From Rubripirellula reticaptiva (GTDB lineage Bacteria > Planctomycetota > Planctomycetia > Pirellulales > Pirellulaceae): a stretch of DNA of 64,000 nucleotides. Shown one piece after another: positions 46,872 to 55,813 of this stretch; positions within the stretch are counted from its first letter, which is position 1; each line of letters opens with the position of its first letter. The translations under genes and the position numbers were made by a program. The notes under the pieces are model-generated. The model saw nothing but the letters and a program-made list of their open reading frames with translations, searched no databases and had not been told where the DNA came from. Location of the stretch: contig NZ_SJPX01000001.1 of assembly GCF_007860175.1 (NCBI RefSeq), positions 1,550,001-1,614,000 of the forward strand, written 5' to 3'.

Positions 46872-46928
46872 CGGCACAGCAAGTCATTGCGGCGACCCTG
46901 GTCGTTTGTTTCAACCGAAAAGACATCT

Positions 46929-49900
46929 ATGAGCAAAGAATTTCCTTCGTCGTCGCCACTGATTGTCGGCGTGGGAGCTTCCGCTGGTGGGTTGGAACCA
47001 TTTACGGATCTCATAAGCTGTTTGGGGGATACGCCTGGCATGGCGGTGGTTTTTGTTCAGCATCTCGACGCAAGGACGACATCGTCGCTTTCCGAATTGC
47101 TGTTAGGCAGTACGGCAATGGCTGTTGTCGAAGTTACTGGGCGAACGAGAGTCGAAGCAAACACCGTTTACTTCTGCCCACCAAAGAAGTTGCTGGCCCT
47201 TCGCAACGGATCGCTGATCGCAACGGATGATCCCAGCACGCAACTGCAACCAACGTCGATTGATCACTTCTTTCATTCAGTAGCCGAAGATCAGGGCGAA
47301 CACGGGTTGGGCGTGGTGCTGTCTGGTGCCGGCAGTGATGGAACATTGGGTTTGAAGGCGATCAGCGACTGCGGTGGTATGACGTTCGCGCAAGAAGCCA
47401 ATTCGGCGAAATATGATTCGATGCCCCGCAATGCGGCAACCACGGGCGTTGCCGATCATGTGCTGCCCCCGGCCGAAATCGCAGCTGAGCTGTTGAAGTA
47501 TCGAGACTACTTGTCAAAAAACGCTGTGGCTCTAAAGGGTGAATCACTCGTCGAAAACATCGAAAAAGTGATCCCCGATATTGCCGAGCAATTGTTGCAG
47601 GCGACCGGACATAATTTTCGACATTATAAAACCAGTACGCTGGGGCGTCGAATTCAACGCCGCATGCAAGTCTTGAAAGTCCTTCACGTCGCTGACTACT
47701 TAGCAGTACTTCAGAAAGAGAAGGATGAAACTCAGAACCTGTTTCGTGAGTTGTTGATCGGAGTCACGGCCTACTTTCGTGATCTGGAATCATTTGAGCG
47801 ATTAGCTAAGGTCGTCATCCCGAAACTGTTTCATAATCGACAATCCGATGATCCGGTACGCATTTGGATACCGGGCTGTGCTACGGGCGAAGAGGCCTAC
47901 ACGATTGCGATTCTATGTCGCGAGCACATGGAATCTCTCGACAGGCCGACGAGTGTTCAGATCTTTGCCAGCGATATTGACGAACGAGCGCTCTCGATTG
48001 CTCGTCAAGGTGCGTATCCCGTTGGAATTACCGAGAACGTCAGCGAGGAGCGACTGCAAAAGTTCTTCGTCAAGAAAGGCAAACGCTATCACGTCCGAAA
48101 AGACATTCGCGAGACCGTGCTGTTTTCGCCGCACAACTTGATTAGCGATCCGCCATTTTCTCGCCAGGACTTGATTTCGTGCCGTAACTTGTTGATCTAT
48201 CTCGGTCCGCACTTGCAAAAGAAACTCATTCCGCTGTTTCACTACGCGCTTCGGCCCAATGGATTCCTCTTTCTTGGACCAAGCGAAACCATTTCGTCAC
48301 ACGGCGAACTGTTTCGCAGTGTTGATGGAAAGCACCGCATCAGTCAACGCAAGGGCACCGCGATCGGCCGCAGCGCGCCCTTAGCGATGCGAACCGATAA
48401 CGGTGGTCTGGTACGTCCACCGGGAAGTTCGCCGCTGGACGATGACAAAACAGACGTCGTTCAAATCATGCAGCGAATCATTCTTGATGAGTTCGCACCG
48501 AAGTCAGTAGTGGTCGACGAAAACGGCCAAGTGATTTGTTCATCCGGCGAAACCAACAAGTACTTGTCGACGGGTGAAGGGGCTTACCAAAACAACATTG
48601 TCAAAATGGCTCGGCGTGGATTGCGAATTGGTCTGCGCGCCGCGCTGATGGAAGCAAAATCGAAACGCCGACGAGTGACCCATGAAAACGTGTCGGTTCA
48701 AACCGAAGATGGGAAGCAACGAGTCATGTTGACGGTTCAGCCCATGATGCGACTGGGCGAAGAAACGGGCCTGTTCATTGTTGTGTTTCATGACGTGGGA
48801 TTGCCATTGGGCCTAAGTGTCAATGCGCCTGGTGTGGAAGATGAATTGATTGCTCGCGGCACGATCGACCGTCAAGCGGACGTGATGATCGAGCAACTCG
48901 AACGTGAGCTGACAACGACGCGGGACGATCTTGACCAGACTTTGCAGGAGATGGAAACGGCAAACGAGGAGTTGAAATCGTCCAACGAAGAACTGCTGTC
49001 GATGAACGAGGAACTGCAATCCGCCAACGAAGAGTTGGAAACATCGAAGGAAGAAATTCGTGCCGGCAGCGATGCGATTTCGCGAGCCAATAACGATCTC
49101 AAGAATCTCTTGCGCAGCACACGCATTGCGACGATTTTTCTTGATGATGATTTGACCATTCGTAGCTACACACCTGCTGCAACAGAAATTTATGGTCTGA
49201 TCTCAACCGATGTGGGACGACCGTTGACCCAGATTGTGCCTGACGTCAAAGAAATGCCGCCGCTACCAAAGCCAGAGTCGCTTAGCCGTGACGCGCCGAT
49301 GGAACACACTATCGCCGCCAATAACGGCAAATCGTACATCCGACGCGTGTTGCCTTACCAGTCGCGGCGGGGCGTTCAGGAAGGAATGGTTGTCACGTTC
49401 AGCGACGTCACGGAACTGAAGCGATCCGAAGAAGAACTCTTTGATGCAAAGACTCGTCTTGATCTTTCGCTTAGCGTTGCTGATGTGGCCCCGTGGAACT
49501 GGGATATGCAAGAGAACGGACCGATTTCAAGCCCGATGCTCAATCGTGTCTTTGGTTTTCCTGAGGACGCGACGCCGACATTGTCGGAATTCATCGAACG
49601 AATGGACGAGCCGGATCGCGATCGGGTGGCGGCGGCAATCGAGCATTCCATCGAAACGGGTGAGACCTATGACATGGAATATCCCATTCGCCGGCCCAAC
49701 GGCGAGCAACGGTACGTTCGTGCTCGTGGTGATGTTCGGATGTCGGAATCCGGTCAAGCGAAAGACTTCTTCGGTGTTGTGGCAGATGTAACGGATCGAA
49801 AACTTCGTGAACTCGAGCTTGTCGAACGAGAAGCCGACTTGCGCCGGGTGATTGACCATCAGCTTGGACTTGTCAGCGTACTCGATTTAGATGGAACGCT

Positions 49901-52526
49901 GTTGGAAGCCAACGCAACTGCGCTTGATGCCGCAGGAGTTGGTCGTGATGACGTGATAGGAAAGAAGTTCTGGGAGTGTTATTGGTGGAGCTATGACGAA
50001 GTTGTCGCCGCGAATTTGAAAGAGGCTTTTCAACGAACGATGGCAGGCGAAGACGTTCGGTACGACGCTGTCATTCGCGTCGCCAACGACGAACGAATCA
50101 CGGTCGACTTTATGATTCGTCCGGTCCGGGATCGCAACGGCAACATCACTCACGTGATTCCGTCGGCTGTTGACATTAGCGAACGAAAACGAGCCGAGGA
50201 AGCCGTTTATCAGCGTGAACAGCGTCTGCAACTTGCGCTAGATTCCGGCGGAATGGGGTTGTGGGAATGGGACATTCCGTCGGATCGCATCACTTGGTCC
50301 GATCAAATGTACGCGATGTTTGGGTACATGCCTGATGAATTTCGTCCGAGTAAGGCGGGCTTTCTGGAGGTCGTTCATCCCGACGATCGACCCATGTTAC
50401 AGAAAATGATCAAATCCGCTTTTGCAGGAAACTGTCAATCACATGAGGTCGAGTTTCGTGTCATCCGCGGCTCCGACAAGTCGACGGTGTGGACGCTCAG
50501 TCGCGGTACCATCCATCGTGATTCCGACGGCAACCCGTTGTCCATTGTTAGCGTCGCAGTCGACGTGACGGATCGGAAGATGCGGGAAACAGAATTGGCG
50601 GATCGCGAGGCGCATCTTCGCCGAGTCATCAACAACCAACTGGGACTTGTCGGTGTCATCGACCTCAACGGTAACCTGTTGGAGGTTGATGAACGTTCGC
50701 TCGCGATTGCACAAACCCGCCGCGATGAAGTCATCGGTAAGCACTTTGCCGATGCGCCATGGTGGAATTATGACTCAGCGGTGTCGCAGCAGATGCGAGA
50801 CGCAATGCAACGTGCGTTTGAGGGGGAAGTGATGCGATTCGATGTGTCACTGTTTGCTCATGGAAGTCGTGGTGTGATGATCGATTTCATGATGGCACCG
50901 GTCTTTGATGCAGACGGGAAAGTCGAATACCTGATCCCCTCAGGCGTCGACATTCGCGAGCGGGTTAGGATCGAGAAAGAACAACGGTCGGTGACCCGCC
51001 GCATGCGAATGGCATTACGAGCTGGTGGGATGGCTGCTTGGGAATGGATGCCGACCAAGAGTATCTGGACACCGGAACTGTATGCGTTGCTAGGTATTGA
51101 TGCAGGTCGAGAGGCGAGTCCGGACCTGTTCTTTTCGTTAGTTCATCCTGACGATCTCGAGTCGATGAAAAAATCATGGCAAAAAGCGGTCGACGGTTCT
51201 GATTCTTACGACAGTGAATTCCGAATCATTCGGCCCGATGGCCAAGTTCGCTGGTTGAATGGGCTCGGTGAAGTGGTCCGTGACAAAGCCGGCCATGTGG
51301 TTCGCATGTACGGCGTCAATTGGGATTCGACTTTCGACCACTTGCAGTCCGAGGCGCTGAAAGAAAGTGAACGCCGTGCGCACGAAGCAAGTGCCTCGAA
51401 AAGCGAATTCCTGGCAAACATGTCTCACGAGATTCGCACGCCAATGACTGCGATTCTTGGATACACGGATTTGGTTGCCGACATGATTGATCATCCCGAG
51501 GCCGCATCGCACCTGCATACGATCCGTCGTAACGGTGACTTTCTTCTCGACATCATCAATGACATCTTGGACCTGTCGAAAATTGAAGCTGGCAAGTTAG
51601 ATGTCAGTGAAGAGCGTTTTTCACCGCAGCGATTGGTCGAAGATGTGCGCAGCATCATGGAGGTCCGTGCGTCGGAAGAGAATTTGAACCTCAGTGTCGA
51701 GTACCACGGTGCAATTCCAACAGTCATTCAAAGCGACGCGAAAAGATTAAAACAAATCCTGATCAACTTGGTGGGCAATGCAATCAAGTTTACCAAACAG
51801 GGCAGCGTTAAAATCATCGTTCAGTGTAAAACTGCGCAGCGAAAGATGCGATTCTCGATCGTTGATACCGGAATTGGCATCAGTGACGAGCAGCAAGCAA
51901 AGTTGTTTTTACCCTTTGCCCAGGGCGATGGGAACGTCAACCGCGAGTTCGGCGGAACGGGGCTTGGGCTGGCAATCAGTAAGCGATTGACTGAGATGCT
52001 TGGCGGTGAAATTGAACTCGATAGCAAGCTTGGCGTTGGTAGCACATTCGTGGTTACGGTTGCAACTGGCGATCTGGCTCACGTCGACATGATCGAACCA
52101 TTAGCGGTCGCCGGTAACGAAACCATTGGTGTAGCGACAGAAGAGATTCGCTTAGACTGCCACGTTCTGATTGTTGACGATCGACGCGATATTCGTTTTC
52201 TCAGTAAGCGATTTCTGACGAAAGCTGGCGCGACCGTTCACGAAGCCGAAGACGGTGAGGTTGCAGTTGCAACTGTAACTCAAGCGATCGACTCTGGCGT
52301 TGTCTACGACCTGATCTTGCTCGACATGCAAATGCCGAAGCTTGATGGCTACGCCACCGCACAGGCGCTTAGGCGTCTTGGTTTCGCCGGTCCAATCATC
52401 GCACTGACCGCCGATGCGATGCAGGGCGACATGAACCGATGCATTGAATCTGGTTGCAACGACTATCTCAGCAAGCCAATTGACAAAGCAATCTTGCTGA
52501 GGAAAGTTAAGAGCTACGTGAAGTGA
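46929..52526 (+). CDS. CheB-CheR-multi-PAS hybrid histidine kinase
   Basis: 1865 residues from the ATG at 46929, where the normal family N-terminus begins. Domain order: CheB methylesterase (about 9-190; Ser in VGVGASAGGLEPF, His in FVQHLDA, Asp in GAGSDGTLG), CheR methyltransferase (211-468; PGCATGEEAYTIAIL), a PAS-like region (508-625), a coiled coil of repeated NEEL units (650-715), six PAS domains (720-1468), HisKA (SHEIRTPMTAILGYTDL), HATPase (NLVGNAIKFT, GGTGLGLAI) and a C-terminal receiver (LILLDMQMPKLDG). PAS 3-4 and 5-6 are a duplicated pair. CheB and CheR normally modify chemoreceptors, but none is encoded nearby; here they may act within the kinase. The terminal receiver needs an Hpt partner to pass phosphate on. 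Confidence 0.94.
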   Translation: MSKEFPSSSPLIVGVGASAGGLEPFTDLISCLGDTPGMAVVFVQHLDARTTSSLSELLLGSTAMAVVEVTGRTRVEANTVYFCPPKKLLALRNGSLIATDDPSTQLQPTSIDHFFHSVAEDQGEHGLGVVLSGAGSDGTLGLKAISDCGGMTFAQEANSAKYDSMPRNAATTGVADHVLPPAEIAAELLKYRDYLSKNAVALKGESLVENIEKVIPDIAEQLLQATGHNFRHYKTSTLGRRIQRRMQVLKVLHVADYLAVLQKEKDETQNLFRELLIGVTAYFRDLESFERLAKVVIPKLFHNRQSDDPVRIWIPGCATGEEAYTIAILCREHMESLDRPTSVQIFASDIDERALSIARQGAYPVGITENVSEERLQKFFVKKGKRYHVRKDIRETVLFSPHNLISDPPFSRQDLISCRNLLIYLGPHLQKKLIPLFHYALRPNGFLFLGPSETISSHGELFRSVDGKHRISQRKGTAIGRSAPLAMRTDNGGLVRPPGSSPLDDDKTDVVQIMQRIILDEFAPKSVVVDENGQVICSSGETNKYLSTGEGAYQNNIVKMARRGLRIGLRAALMEAKSKRRRVTHENVSVQTEDGKQRVMLTVQPMMRLGEETGLFIVVFHDVGLPLGLSVNAPGVEDELIARGTIDRQADVMIEQLERELTTTRDDLDQTLQEMETANEELKSSNEELLSMNEELQSANEELETSKEEIRAGSDAISRANNDLKNLLRSTRIATIFLDDDLTIRSYTPAATEIYGLISTDVGRPLTQIVPDVKEMPPLPKPESLSRDAPMEHTIAANNGKSYIRRVLPYQSRRGVQEGMVVTFSDVTELKRSEEELFDAKTRLDLSLSVADVAPWNWDMQENGPISSPMLNRVFGFPEDATPTLSEFIERMDEPDRDRVAAAIEHSIETGETYDMEYPIRRPNGEQRYVRARGDVRMSESGQAKDFFGVVADVTDRKLRELELVEREADLRRVIDHQLGLVSVLDLDGTLLEANATALDAAGVGRDDVIGKKFWECYWWSYDEVVAANLKEAFQRTMAGEDVRYDAVIRVANDERITVDFMIRPVRDRNGNITHVIPSAVDISERKRAEEAVYQREQRLQLALDSGGMGLWEWDIPSDRITWSDQMYAMFGYMPDEFRPSKAGFLEVVHPDDRPMLQKMIKSAFAGNCQSHEVEFRVIRGSDKSTVWTLSRGTIHRDSDGNPLSIVSVAVDVTDRKMRETELADREAHLRRVINNQLGLVGVIDLNGNLLEVDERSLAIAQTRRDEVIGKHFADAPWWNYDSAVSQQMRDAMQRAFEGEVMRFDVSLFAHGSRGVMIDFMMAPVFDADGKVEYLIPSGVDIRERVRIEKEQRSVTRRMRMALRAGGMAAWEWMPTKSIWTPELYALLGIDAGREASPDLFFSLVHPDDLESMKKSWQKAVDGSDSYDSEFRIIRPDGQVRWLNGLGEVVRDKAGHVVRMYGVNWDSTFDHLQSEALKESERRAHEASASKSEFLANMSHEIRTPMTAILGYTDLVADMIDHPEAASHLHTIRRNGDFLLDIINDILDLSKIEAGKLDVSEERFSPQRLVEDVRSIMEVRASEENLNLSVEYHGAIPTVIQSDAKRLKQILINLVGNAIKFTKQGSVKIIVQCKTAQRKMRFSIVDTGIGISDEQQAKLFLPFAQGDGNVNREFGGTGLGLAISKRLTEMLGGEIELDSKLGVGSTFVVTVATGDLAHVDMIEPLAVAGNETIGVATEEIRLDCHVLIVDDRRDIRFLSKRFLTKAGATVHEAEDGEVAVATVTQAIDSGVVYDLILLDMQMPKLDGYATAQALRRLGFAGPIIALTADAMQGDMNRCIESGCNDYLSKPIDKAILLRKVKSYVK

Positions 52527-52647: not shown

Positions 52648-52815
52648 TTATGCAATGGGGCCGCGACGGCCCATTACCAACCCGATGATGAACAACACAA
52701 TGAAGACAACGAACAGCACTTTTGCGATCCAGGCTGCGGTGCCAGCGACGACGCCGAAGCCGAGCACACCAGCGATCAAAGCAAAAATTAAGAAAGTCAT
52801 AGCCCAGCCTAACAT
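52648..52815 (-). CDS. DUF1328 (YtjA-type) small membrane protein
   Basis: 55 residues from the ATG at 52815, with GGAG 10 bp upstream. Two hydrophobic helices ([19 protein letters not shown] and [20 protein letters not shown]) and the short basic end GRRGPIA are the DUF1328 pattern, usually 50-60 residues. DUF1328 peptides are stress-associated membrane proteins of unknown action, frequently found beside CsbD and CheB-CheR kinase genes. A sigma54-type promoter lies 75 bp upstream. It converges with the hybrid kinase gene. Confidence 0.88.
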
Positions 52816-53051: not shown

Positions 53052-53555
53052 CTAGCCAAGCTGATCACGTTTTCGATTGTTTAGCAGGAATGAAACGCAT
53101 TCATTGCCAAGAACTGGACCTTGAAGTATCAAGTCCGTGGTGAGTTGTTTAGCGAACTCGCGGCCGGTCAATCCGAGATCACCGTAGCCAGCTTCCTTCA
53201 CAACCGCTTGCGTCGCACCGAACGCAATGAAGCGGATTCCCGCAAGTGCCGCAGTCGAAAGGCACATCGGACATGGTTCGGCGGTTGCAAGTAGCCAGCA
53301 GTCTGAGAGCTTCGTTTTACCCAAAGACTGGCATGCCTGTGTGATCGCATTCACCTCTGCGTGCGCCGCCGGATTGTTGGTCGAGAAAACTGTATTGCAA
53401 GTCACCGCGACTTCTTCTCCGGTCAATCGGTAGATTGCTGCTCCGAACGGACGTTCGCCGCGTTGCACACCTTGCTTGCCCTTCTGCAAAGCCACCTTCA
53501 TCCAGTGCGATAAAGTGGAACTGCGGACCGAGGCAAGATTGGTAGAAGTGTGCAT
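53052..53555 (-). CDS. Nucleoside/nucleobase deaminase of the CDA fold
   Basis: 167 residues. Zinc site in PAAHAEVNAITQ (His ligand and proton-shuttle Glu) and TAEPCPMCLSTAALAG (two Cys ligands). The order and spacing match the guanine deaminase/TadA-like group. The C-terminal part (NECVSFLLNNRKRDQ) lacks the tRNA-binding features of TadA as far as I can see, so a base or nucleoside deaminase is more likely; guanine or cytosine cannot be separated by reading alone. Cytoplasmic. It precedes the LEA-like lipoprotein gene's end by 55 bp, both on the minus strand. Confidence 0.85.
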   Translation of the reverse strand: MHTSTNLASVRSSTLSHWMKVALQKGKQGVQRGERPFGAAIYRLTGEEVAVTCNTVFSTNNPAAHAEVNAITQACQSLGKTKLSDCWLLATAEPCPMCLSTAALAGIRFIAFGATQAVVKEAGYGDLGLTGREFAKQLTTDLILQGPVLGNECVSFLLNNRKRDQLG

Positions 53556-53610: not shown

Positions 53611-53988
53611 CTATTGATTGTCGACTTCTTCCAACGCGTCGGCTTTTGCCTCGCCAGCGTCCTCGATTGCGTCCGCCTTTTTCTCGCCGACCACTTCCTT
53701 TTTGTCTGCTTTCATTTCGCCAATGTCTTCGATGGAATCAGCTTTTGCTTCAGCAGCGTCCTGAACAGCGTCGGATGCGTCGTCCGTTCGTTCACGTAGA
53801 TTCTCAGCAGCGTTCTGTGATGCATCGCGAGTTGCTTCGGCAGACGACTGAGAAGCATCGCGGACGTCGTCTGCTTGTTGTTGGGTGGTGTCGCGAATGG
53901 CGTCCGCTTCTTGATCGAGTGCTGACTCATCACAGCCAACCATCGCGAACGTACAAAGGGTCAATACACAGGTAGCTAGCATCTTCAT
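53611..53988 (-). CDS. Lipoprotein built of tandem 11-residue LEA-like repeats
   Basis: 125 residues from the ATG at 53988 (AGGA 11 bp upstream); a longer in-frame start to 54108 would cross the promoter. A lipoprotein signal (CVLTLCTFAMVGC) is followed by eight units of exactly 11 residues: RDTTQQQADDV, RDASQSSAEAT, RDASQNAAENL, RERTDDASDAV, QDAAEAKADSI, EDIGEMKADKK, EVVGEKKADAI, EDAGEAKADAL. The 11-mer period with Ala at fixed sites and alternating charges is that of group 3 LEA proteins, which fold into amphipathic helices on drying and protect membranes. As a lipoprotein it would line the envelope. A perfect sigma54 consensus promoter lies 67 bp upstream. LEA identity is my inference from periodicity. 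Confidence 0.83.
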   Translation of the reverse strand: MKMLATCVLTLCTFAMVGCDESALDQEADAIRDTTQQQADDVRDASQSSAEATRDASQNAAENLRERTDDASDAVQDAAEAKADSIEDIGEMKADKKEVVGEKKADAIEDAGEAKADALEEVDNQ

Positions 53989-54054
53989 CGTCTTATTCCT
54001 TGAATGGGAGAAGTTTGCCCGCTTGAAACCACGAGCGTCGCGGTCCAAGTGGAT

Positions 54055-54069
54055 GCAATCGATGTGCCA
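54055..54069 (-). promoter_or_regulatory. Sigma54 promoter of the LEA-like lipoprotein gene
   Basis: Minus strand TGGCACATCGATTGC: perfect TGGCAC-N5-TTGC with GG-N10-GC. Predicted start near 54043, 55 bp before the ATG at 53988. Confidence 0.85.
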
Positions 54070-54220
54070 ATATCCATTCCGTTGCTGAGTCCAGCACGGC
54101 GTCGGCATAGTTGCGGAGTACTAGAAGCCGGCCTGGGACGGCAGAAAACTGTTGGTGGGAGGCTGTGATGGTGAACATCAGGTCAGGTCAAAGGCGTCGC
54201 GAAATCAACGCCGGGTCGGG

Positions 54221-54235
54221 TGGCACGGCAGTTGC
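54221..54235 (+). promoter_or_regulatory. Sigma54 promoter of the NtrC-type activator gene
   Basis: TGGCACGGCAGTTGC, a full match to TGGCACG-N4-TTGC. Predicted start near 54247, about 52 bp before the ATG at 54299. It implies that the activator switches on its own gene. Confidence 0.85.
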
Positions 54236-54298
54236 GACACCAGGCTGATCGACAATCGACCTTGCTTGCCCGTAAACTTGACTTGCTCAAATAACCTC

Positions 54299-55813
54299 AT
54301 GAATTCCAACGCTGCAGCCGACGCCACTTCCGCCGTCCCTCATGCCACACCAAAATCGAAATGGTCTAAGCCAATGCCGAGTGTCCTGGTTATCGACGAC
54401 GACCGATCCATCCTTGCCCTTGCCCAAAAAACGCTATCTGCGATTGCCGATGTAGAGACCGCTGCGACAGCCGCGGAAGGACTTGACAAGCTTCGTGGTG
54501 GCGATTTTGACACGGTTCTATTGGACATTCAGCTTCCTGACCAAAATGGGCTGGCTGTCTACTGTGAGATCCGTGAGTTTGATCGACGCATCCCAGTTGT
54601 TTTTATGACCATCGAAGCAGCCAGCAGCACGGCGATCGAAGCGATGCAGCTTGGCGCGTTCGACTACATCGGAAAACCGCTTTCGGTCGAGCCGCTACGC
54701 GACTTGATCGAGAAGGCGATCGAACAGAGGCAAATCAGCAGCGTTCCGGTCGCGATTAGCGCCGACGACCAGTCTGCGGATACGGCGGGTGAGCTGTTCA
54801 TTGGTCGCGCACCTGCCATGCTGGACGTTTTTAAGGCAATTGGAAAAGTCAGCAAACAGGACGTTCCGATTTTGATCCGTGGCGAAAGCGGCACAGGCAA
54901 AGAACTTGTTGCTCGCGCACTTTATCAGTACAGCCATCGCGGTGACGAAACCTTCCTGGCCGTCAACTGTGCTGCGTTGCCGGACAGCTTGTTGGAAAGT
55001 GAACTGTTTGGCCATGAGAAGGGATCATTTACAGGAGCCGAGTCTCGACGCATCGGTAAGTTCGAGCAGTGCAACGGAGGGACATTGTTCTTGGATGAAA
55101 TCGGCGATATGGCCGCGACGGTTCAAGCCAAGGTACTGCGGGTCTTGCAAGAGCAGCGATTCGAGCGAGTCGGTGGCAACAAGGAACTGACGACAGATTG
55201 CCGAATCATCGCGGCAACGAATCGGCCGCTCGAACAAATGGTCGAGGACGGTGAATATCGAGAAGACCTTTTGTATCGGCTCAACGGAGTCACAATCGAA
55301 TTGCCGCCGTTGCGCGAACGGCTCAGCGATGTGCCAGCGCTAATTCAGTTTTTTATGTCGCAAGCCAAAAAGGAATTCAACAAGCCAGACTTAGAAGGAT
55401 TGTCGCCCGAGGCAGTCGAACTATTCAAAGCATATGACTGGCCCGGTAACGTACGACAACTTCGAGCCGTCATTCGGCGATGTGTTCTCGATACGGTGAT
55501 GCCCGTCATCACGCCCGATGGTCTGCCAGTCGAAGTAACCAAGGGCAGGTCTAGTGCCGTCCCGGTGGTCCGAGAAAATTCCGCAGGCGCTGGACTACCC
55601 GAACTCGTCAAACGTTTGCTCGAAGAAAACTCAACCGACGTCTACGCACAAGCGAACGAGTATATGGAGAAGTACGTGATCACCGAGGTGTTGAAGTCTA
55701 CCGATGGTAACCAGAGTCAAGCCGCCGAAATCTTGGGCATCACCCGAGGGAAGCTGCGCGATCGTATCTCGACGTACAGCATTTCGCTGACCAGCAACGT
55801 GCAAGTCGGTTAA
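54299..55813 (+). CDS. NtrC-family sigma54-dependent response regulator
   Basis: 504 residues from the ATG at 54299; an ATG at 54374 (starting PSVLVIDDD) is an alternative. Receiver (about 28-140: VLVIDDDRSIL, LLDIQLPDQNG phospho-acceptor, IGKPLSVEPL), AAA+ domain (about 166-400) with Walker A GESGTGKELVARA, sigma54-contact loop GSFTGAESRR (the GSFTGA variant of GAFTGA), Walker B GGTLFLDEIGDM, and R-finger region RLNGVTIELPPLRERL, then a Fis-type helix-turn-helix (QSQAAEILGITRGKLRDRI). It hydrolyses ATP to open sigma54 promoters and should act on those found in this island, including its own. Cognate kinase is likely the hybrid kinase through an Hpt (inference). Confidence 0.94.
   Translation: MNSNAAADATSAVPHATPKSKWSKPMPSVLVIDDDRSILALAQKTLSAIADVETAATAAEGLDKLRGGDFDTVLLDIQLPDQNGLAVYCEIREFDRRIPVVFMTIEAASSTAIEAMQLGAFDYIGKPLSVEPLRDLIEKAIEQRQISSVPVAISADDQSADTAGELFIGRAPAMLDVFKAIGKVSKQDVPILIRGESGTGKELVARALYQYSHRGDETFLAVNCAALPDSLLESELFGHEKGSFTGAESRRIGKFEQCNGGTLFLDEIGDMAATVQAKVLRVLQEQRFERVGGNKELTTDCRIIAATNRPLEQMVEDGEYREDLLYRLNGVTIELPPLRERLSDVPALIQFFMSQAKKEFNKPDLEGLSPEAVELFKAYDWPGNVRQLRAVIRRCVLDTVMPVITPDGLPVEVTKGRSSAVPVVRENSAGAGLPELVKRLLEENSTDVYAQANEYMEKYVITEVLKSTDGNQSQAAEILGITRGKLRDRISTYSISLTSNVQVG

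Follow-up and report, generated by a model that had tools for sequence, protein, structure and literature searches.

A predicted lipid-anchored protein of 11-residue repeats with a probable sigma54 stress promoter in Rubripirellula reticaptiva

Results

The window (the whole 64,000-nucleotide stretch of R. reticaptiva DNA analyzed here) carries on its minus strand a small lipoprotein-type gene, with a divergent response regulator gene on one side and deaminase, small membrane protein and hybrid kinase genes on the other (Table 1). The ORF product begins with MKMLATCVLTLCTFAMVGC, which has the basic N-terminus, hydrophobic stretch and lipobox Cys of a lipoprotein signal (the signal peptide ends FAMVGC), and continues with 106 residues built of 11-mers. 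The lipobox Cys19 of this minus-strand ORF agrees with the initial annotation, which had proposed a lipid-anchored product.

Table 1. Coordinates of the lipoprotein gene, its parts and neighboring features in the window.
Feature	Position	Strand	Basis
CheB-CheR-PAS hybrid histidine kinase, candidate sensor	46887-52526	+	
DUF1328 (YtjA-like) small membrane protein; sigma54-like site at 52904-52889, 1 mismatch	52648-52815	-	
Deaminase, cytidine/deoxycytidylate type	53052-53555	-	
Lipoprotein gene, 125 aa	53611-53988	-	ORF; orthologues; alignment
Repeats 6-9, aa 83-125, Glu at 5, mostly Gly at 8, mostly Lys at 11	53614-53742	-	
Repeat 5, aa 72-82, divergent middle repeat, lower pLDDT nearby in the window protein's model	53743-53775	-	
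Repeats 1-4, aa 28-71, Arg at position 5	53776-53907	-	
Lipobox Cys19, then D-E	53932-53934	-	sequence, alignment
Signal peptide, aa 1-18, MKMLATCVLTLCTFAMVG	53935-53988	-	sequence; G18-C19 invariant, 11 orthologues
Likely ribosome-binding site AAGGAA	53996-54001	-	sequence
Putative sigma54 promoter TTGGCAC-ATCGA-TTGCA of lipoprotein gene, TTGGCACATCGATTGCA	54054-54070	-	exact match
Second sigma54-type site TGGCAC-GGCAG-TTGCG, ~63 bp before response-regulator gene	54221-54236	+	
NtrC-type response regulator (receiver, sigma54 activator, Fis HTH), divergent from lipoprotein; probable activator	54299-55813	+	

Eight full 11-mers (aa 28-115) are followed by a ninth (aa 116-125) that is short by one residue, and self-identity at a lag of 11 residues covers 36 of 95 positions (z = 9.7; reached in 0 of 2000 shuffles), with lags of 22 and 33 also prominent. 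The eight repeats announced initially are therefore present, with a period far above chance, but they are not exact: copies have on average 3.5 of 11 residues in common (maximum 8). Tandem Repeats Finder detected no DNA array at the lipoprotein locus. The conserved D first placed near the start of the repeat, and the A or AD near positions 8-9, are better described by a register that begins with 'AD' and gives the unit A1-D/E2-x3-I/V/L4-R or E5-D/E6-x7-G/S/T/A8-E/Q9-x10-K or A11. Ala occupies position 1 in 58 of 66 cases, position 4 is mostly I/V/L, and position 8 is free of charged residues and nearly always G, S, T or A. The composition is hydrophilic and highly charged (GRAVY −1.1; 33 acidic and 12 basic among 107 residues; no aromatics), with few large hydrophobics in the core (ILVM 12 percent).

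Matches to the protein were found in 13 of 60 genomes in a set made up of the window's own genome and relatives, one of which is strain K23_9, presumably Stieleria marina of the Pirellulaceae. Only 6 of 294 genomes in a phylum-wide sample had a match, so the family is patchy; it is retained by some members of a planctomycete family. The lipobox and the repeats are kept in 11 aligned orthologues, with G18 and C19 invariant, and in two short orthologues the missing stretches, of 11 and 33 residues, preserve the 11-residue register. The orthologues thus share the period, the absence of which had been named at the outset as grounds for abandoning the initial reading. Similar lipoproteins with weaker matches come from L020, an alphaproteobacterium, and L019, a MAG that carries a Klebsiella label. 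An apparent second genomic copy (C3:201487-201672) is a weak match with two stops and no family-like ORF, and was taken as chance.

Hydrophobic periodicity summed over the 11 orthologues peaks at 98.25 degrees per residue, the value of an 11/3 helix. For the window protein the power is 15.3 at 98.2 degrees vs 0.3 at 102.9 degrees, the heptad value, and this near-zero heptad power rules out an Lpp-like coiled coil of 3.5-residue periodicity, the other outcome that would have counted against the initial reading. AlphaFold, given 11 sequences, predicted one continuous helix over residues 21-123 with pLDDT of 91-97 over most of its length, dipping to 83-87 around residues 61-80. A helical hairpin folded at repeat 5 was dropped in favor of a dimer, since the orthologue L026, which has Lys-Pro in repeat 5, was also predicted as a single continuous helix. 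AlphaFold can give high confidence to conditionally folding proteins, so the model does not prove a stable helix in water, nor does the high-pLDDT helix distinguish it from the LEA behavior of disorder in water and folding on drying. We conclude that the product is a small lipid-anchored protein whose 11-residue repeats are modelled as one long helix.

The initial annotation also described a perfect sigma54 promoter, and the exact match that lies upstream of the gene recurs across the orthologues. A sigma54 site with at most one mismatch precedes 9 of the 10 orthologues that have enough upstream DNA, 81-141 bp from the start codon, and the tenth has a site with two mismatches. The upstream regions are otherwise unalignable (identity 0.733 vs 0.717 for shuffled DNA), and 0 of 2000 shuffled upstream sets contained at least three sigma54 sites. 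Genome-wide, exact sites are weakly enriched (28 vs 20 for the control pattern), a mild excess that means single sites prove little. With a conserved −24/−12 element, rpoN present in the genome and a candidate activator next to it, the promoter of the lipoprotein gene looks real. In the relative G018 an exact sigma54-type site lies at the same distance before the orthologous response regulator. Inverted repeats that could serve as activator sites were sought between the two divergent promoters, and none were found. In G027, sigma54-like sequences (TTGGCACGGTATTTGC, TTGGCACTGAATTTGC) recur many times, probably in mobile elements, and inflate the site counts there.

Gene neighborhoods are partly shared. 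Relatives of the hybrid kinase lie within ~10 kb of the orthologue in L018, L023 and L027, and relatives of the deaminase lie near it in G018 and G021. The window's kinase gene itself contains an imperfect 21-bp tandem repeat (48963-49030) in a NEEL-rich linker.

Similar sites, ~20-150 bp before the start codon, precede genes for HSP70, Cpn10, HSP20, CsrA, Pmp3, PRC, SpoIIAA-like and nitroreductase proteins in the same genome; in relatives they precede genes for Clp ATPase, Usp, thioredoxin, CsbD, sucrose-synthase-like and DUF2383 proteins, along with further HSP70, Cpn10 and HSP20 genes recognised by eye. The genes named dnaK, groES, hsp20, clp, usp, csrA, pmp3 and csbD behind sigma54-type sites probably form a stress regulon, and a sigma54 stress promoter probably drives the lipoprotein gene, in line with the inducible expression suggested initially. 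In a 2025 survey, the chaperones, Usp and MscS channels of Planctomycetia were already predicted to be under sigma54 control (PMC12316311), so the regulon itself is known by prediction.

Several other groupings of stress-type genes and sites were observed. Positions 34000-57000 of the window hold a cluster with two MscS channels (one with BON), CsbD, DUF2383, an AI-2E-type transporter, DUF1328 and the CheB-CheR-PAS hybrid kinase. An apparent stress island in G018 (contig C1, 1860480-1928721) has six exact sigma54-type sites in 68 kb and includes CsbD-like, cysteine-synthase-like, 11-mer lipoprotein and response regulator genes. Of the 11 sites on that main contig, 6 fall within the 68 kb around the orthologue, a concentration seen in 1 of 20000 random placements, for a stretch picked after seeing the data. 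A second small lipoprotein (GCDVEQ / GCDVDQ), with PDVDVD-type repeated stretches and no Pfam match, is encoded in the window's own genome (L049:1607-1879, contig C3) and in G032 (L093). It too is preceded by an exact sigma54-type site, and in G032 ~5 kb separate this promoter from the gene for the 11-mer lipoprotein.

The shift in charge from R/Q-rich to K/E-rich repeats, pointed out in the initial annotation, was confirmed and holds in each of the eight full-length orthologues. At position 5, all eight have Arg in repeats 1-3 and seven have it in repeat 4; Glu takes this place in repeats 6-9 of every one. Repeat 5 is variable and begins with S, P, K-P or L. This conserved charge switch around a variable middle repeat is apparently new, and it points to pairing of helices as another option besides the coating of a surface. 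A crude electrostatic model gave the antiparallel pair a lower energy than the parallel pair in 8/8 orthologues. The position-5 order of the window protein beat 287 of 300 shuffles in this coarse model, with the parallel form beating shuffles equally often, and we treat the modelled antiparallel preference as a lead only.

Comparison with known families separated the period from the family name. The LEA_4 profile (PF02987) had no match at the lipoprotein locus even at E≤10 and, at E≤1, was not one of the 25 Pfam families listed across the 11 orthologues. Membership in group 3 LEA, as first proposed, was accordingly rejected, although the 11-residue periodicity that had motivated it is present. 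The Apolipoprotein profile (PF01442), the other family put forward for comparison, matched 11 of 11 orthologues weakly (best E 9e-8, all below the curated cut-off), and the window protein scored 18.5 bits against a cut-off of 90, which does not place it in the family; all family matches fall below curated cut-offs. Searched against the PDB, the orthologue profile gave weak matches to ApoA-IV (3.9e-5), Hsp12 (0.014) and SHERP (0.041). ApoA-IV and Hsp12 were still found with a like-for-like set of eight sequences, and a column-shuffled control profile lost all three and found nothing, so that residue order, and not composition alone, makes the resemblance. The resemblance to ApoA-IV, Hsp12 and SHERP indicates a shared design and does not establish common descent.

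The helix also differs from typical lipid-binding helices. In repeats 6-9 the apolar face is bordered by E5 on one side and by K11 on the opposite side, whereas a class A lipid-binding helix has basic residues at both borders and an adequate hydrophobic moment. The net charge is −21, and a narrow, weakly hydrophobic face gives a HeliQuest-like score of at most 0.14 (the usual threshold is 0.68); direct lipid binding is therefore not predicted.

The initial annotation had placed the protection at the outer envelope, a location that stands unproven. In E. coli, residues such as D-E, D-D and N-D after the Cys tend to hold lipoproteins at the inner membrane, and D-E, D-D and N-D are the residues that follow the Cys in this family. 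The LolA profile (PF03548) had no match in the window's own genome, however, which makes the sorting rule of E. coli an uncertain guide here.

Discussion

The lipoprotein signal, the repeats with their 11/3 period, the conserved promoter and the stress-type genes behind similar promoters are computed features and the helix is a prediction; the membrane, the activator and the protective action are inferred. Our best reading, in which we have roughly even confidence, is a protective helix that is induced by stress and tethered to a membrane. The gene would be activated within a general stress regulon by a response regulator of the sigma54 enhancer-binding type, probably the divergent neighbor. 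The product would then be exported and tethered to a membrane by its lipidated Cys, facing the periplasm, where the 106-residue repeat region would form, permanently or on stress, a single ~16 nm helix of 11/3 periodicity with a narrow stripe of Ala, Ile/Val/Leu and Gly/Ser/Thr/Ala along one face. Such a helix may shield the membrane and neighboring periplasmic proteins in the manner of LEA-3, Hsp12 or apolipoprotein helices.

Helix-helix packing accounts at least as well as coating for the conserved charge switch and for the small residues conserved at positions 1 and 8. It is conceivable, though we think it unlikely, that the helices instead form a right-handed 11/3 (hendecad) coiled coil around an A-I-G core, which would be made under envelope stress and would serve, in an Lpp-like job, to space or stiffen the periplasm. 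Ala at 1, mostly I/V/L at 4 and small uncharged residues at 8 would supply that core, and with R5 in repeats 1-4 opposed to E5 in repeats 6-9, the two chains of an antiparallel dimer with repeat 5 at its center would complement each other in charge, as the conservation of the switch and the antiparallel preference in all eight orthologues suggest. Register-keeping gaps of 11 and 33 residues and a predicted helix that runs on through Lys-Pro in repeat 5 are likewise consistent with a rod. However, large hydrophobics are scarce in the core, no Lys that could be attached to peptidoglycan is conserved at the C-terminus, and in the coarse electrostatic model shuffles are beaten just as often by the parallel form. 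A specific version, an antiparallel 11/3 coiled-coil dimer in Arg-half/Glu-half register whose anchors at opposite ends of a ~16 nm rod would staple two facing membranes under stress, strikes us as quite improbable. We favor the tethered protective helix over a structural rod on two grounds, the stress regulon and the likeness to stress proteins that fold on membranes.

The highly charged, aromatic-free composition would also suit a disordered periplasmic filler that acts osmotically or by excluded volume and becomes helical only when dried, with no specific contact to membrane or partner, and NMR shows the nearest published analogue, BilRI, to be disordered (PMC8096337). The charge switch and the strict conservation of particular repeat positions exceed what such a composition needs, however, and the helix is predicted with high confidence, so we consider a filler improbable. 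Finally, adjacent divergent genes that each have a sigma54-type site, and related kinases nearby in L018, L023 and L027, could point to a lipoprotein that senses envelope state and feeds back on the CheB-CheR-PAS kinase and the sigma54 regulator, but the kinase domains found are all of cytoplasmic types and L024, L025 and L028 have no kinase relative within the stretch read, making this role very improbable.

These results place an 11-residue-repeat lipoprotein in a probable sigma54 stress programme of planctomycetes, bacteria with unusual envelopes whose stress control is poorly known. The family offers a test case for whether the 11/3 helix design of LEA proteins, Hsp12 and apolipoproteins has an independent origin in protection of the envelope, and with the charge switch, point mutants could test coating and pairing separately.

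Among known systems, Braun's lipoprotein Lpp is likewise a lipid-anchored periplasmic helix (here a predicted one). Lpp is a heptad-based trimer with a C-terminal Lys linked to peptidoglycan, whereas the planctomycete protein has an 11/3 period and no conserved terminal Lys. Apolipoproteins A1/A4/E (PF01442) share helix repeats of 11/22 residues, but repeats 6-9 here have Glu and Lys flanks in place of the class A charge pattern. SHERP of Leishmania is a small protein that forms amphipathic helices on membranes. Yeast Hsp12 is also small and folds on membranes, into four separate amphipathic helices (PMC6164224). Both match the lipoprotein family profile only weakly (E 0.01-0.04), and both are without a lipoprotein anchor. 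With group 3 LEA proteins the lipoprotein shares an 11-residue repeat, Ala-rich and hydrophilic character and a stress context, and it differs in being strongly acidic, in having Gly or Ser/Thr at position 8 and in its lipid anchor. The closest parallel is BilRI of Aggregatibacter actinomycetemcomitans and its Pasteurellaceae relatives, a lipid-anchored LEA_4-type protein of eleven 11-mers, ten of which end in KD[A/T], that resides in the outer membrane and whose expression is raised by temperature change (PMC8096337). Since BilRI is published, the general kind, a lipid-anchored 11-mer protein, is already known; both are hydrophilic bacterial lipoproteins of 11-mers, and the planctomycete protein is set apart by its lack of a LEA_4 match, a different motif with a charge switch, and its putative sigma54 promoter.
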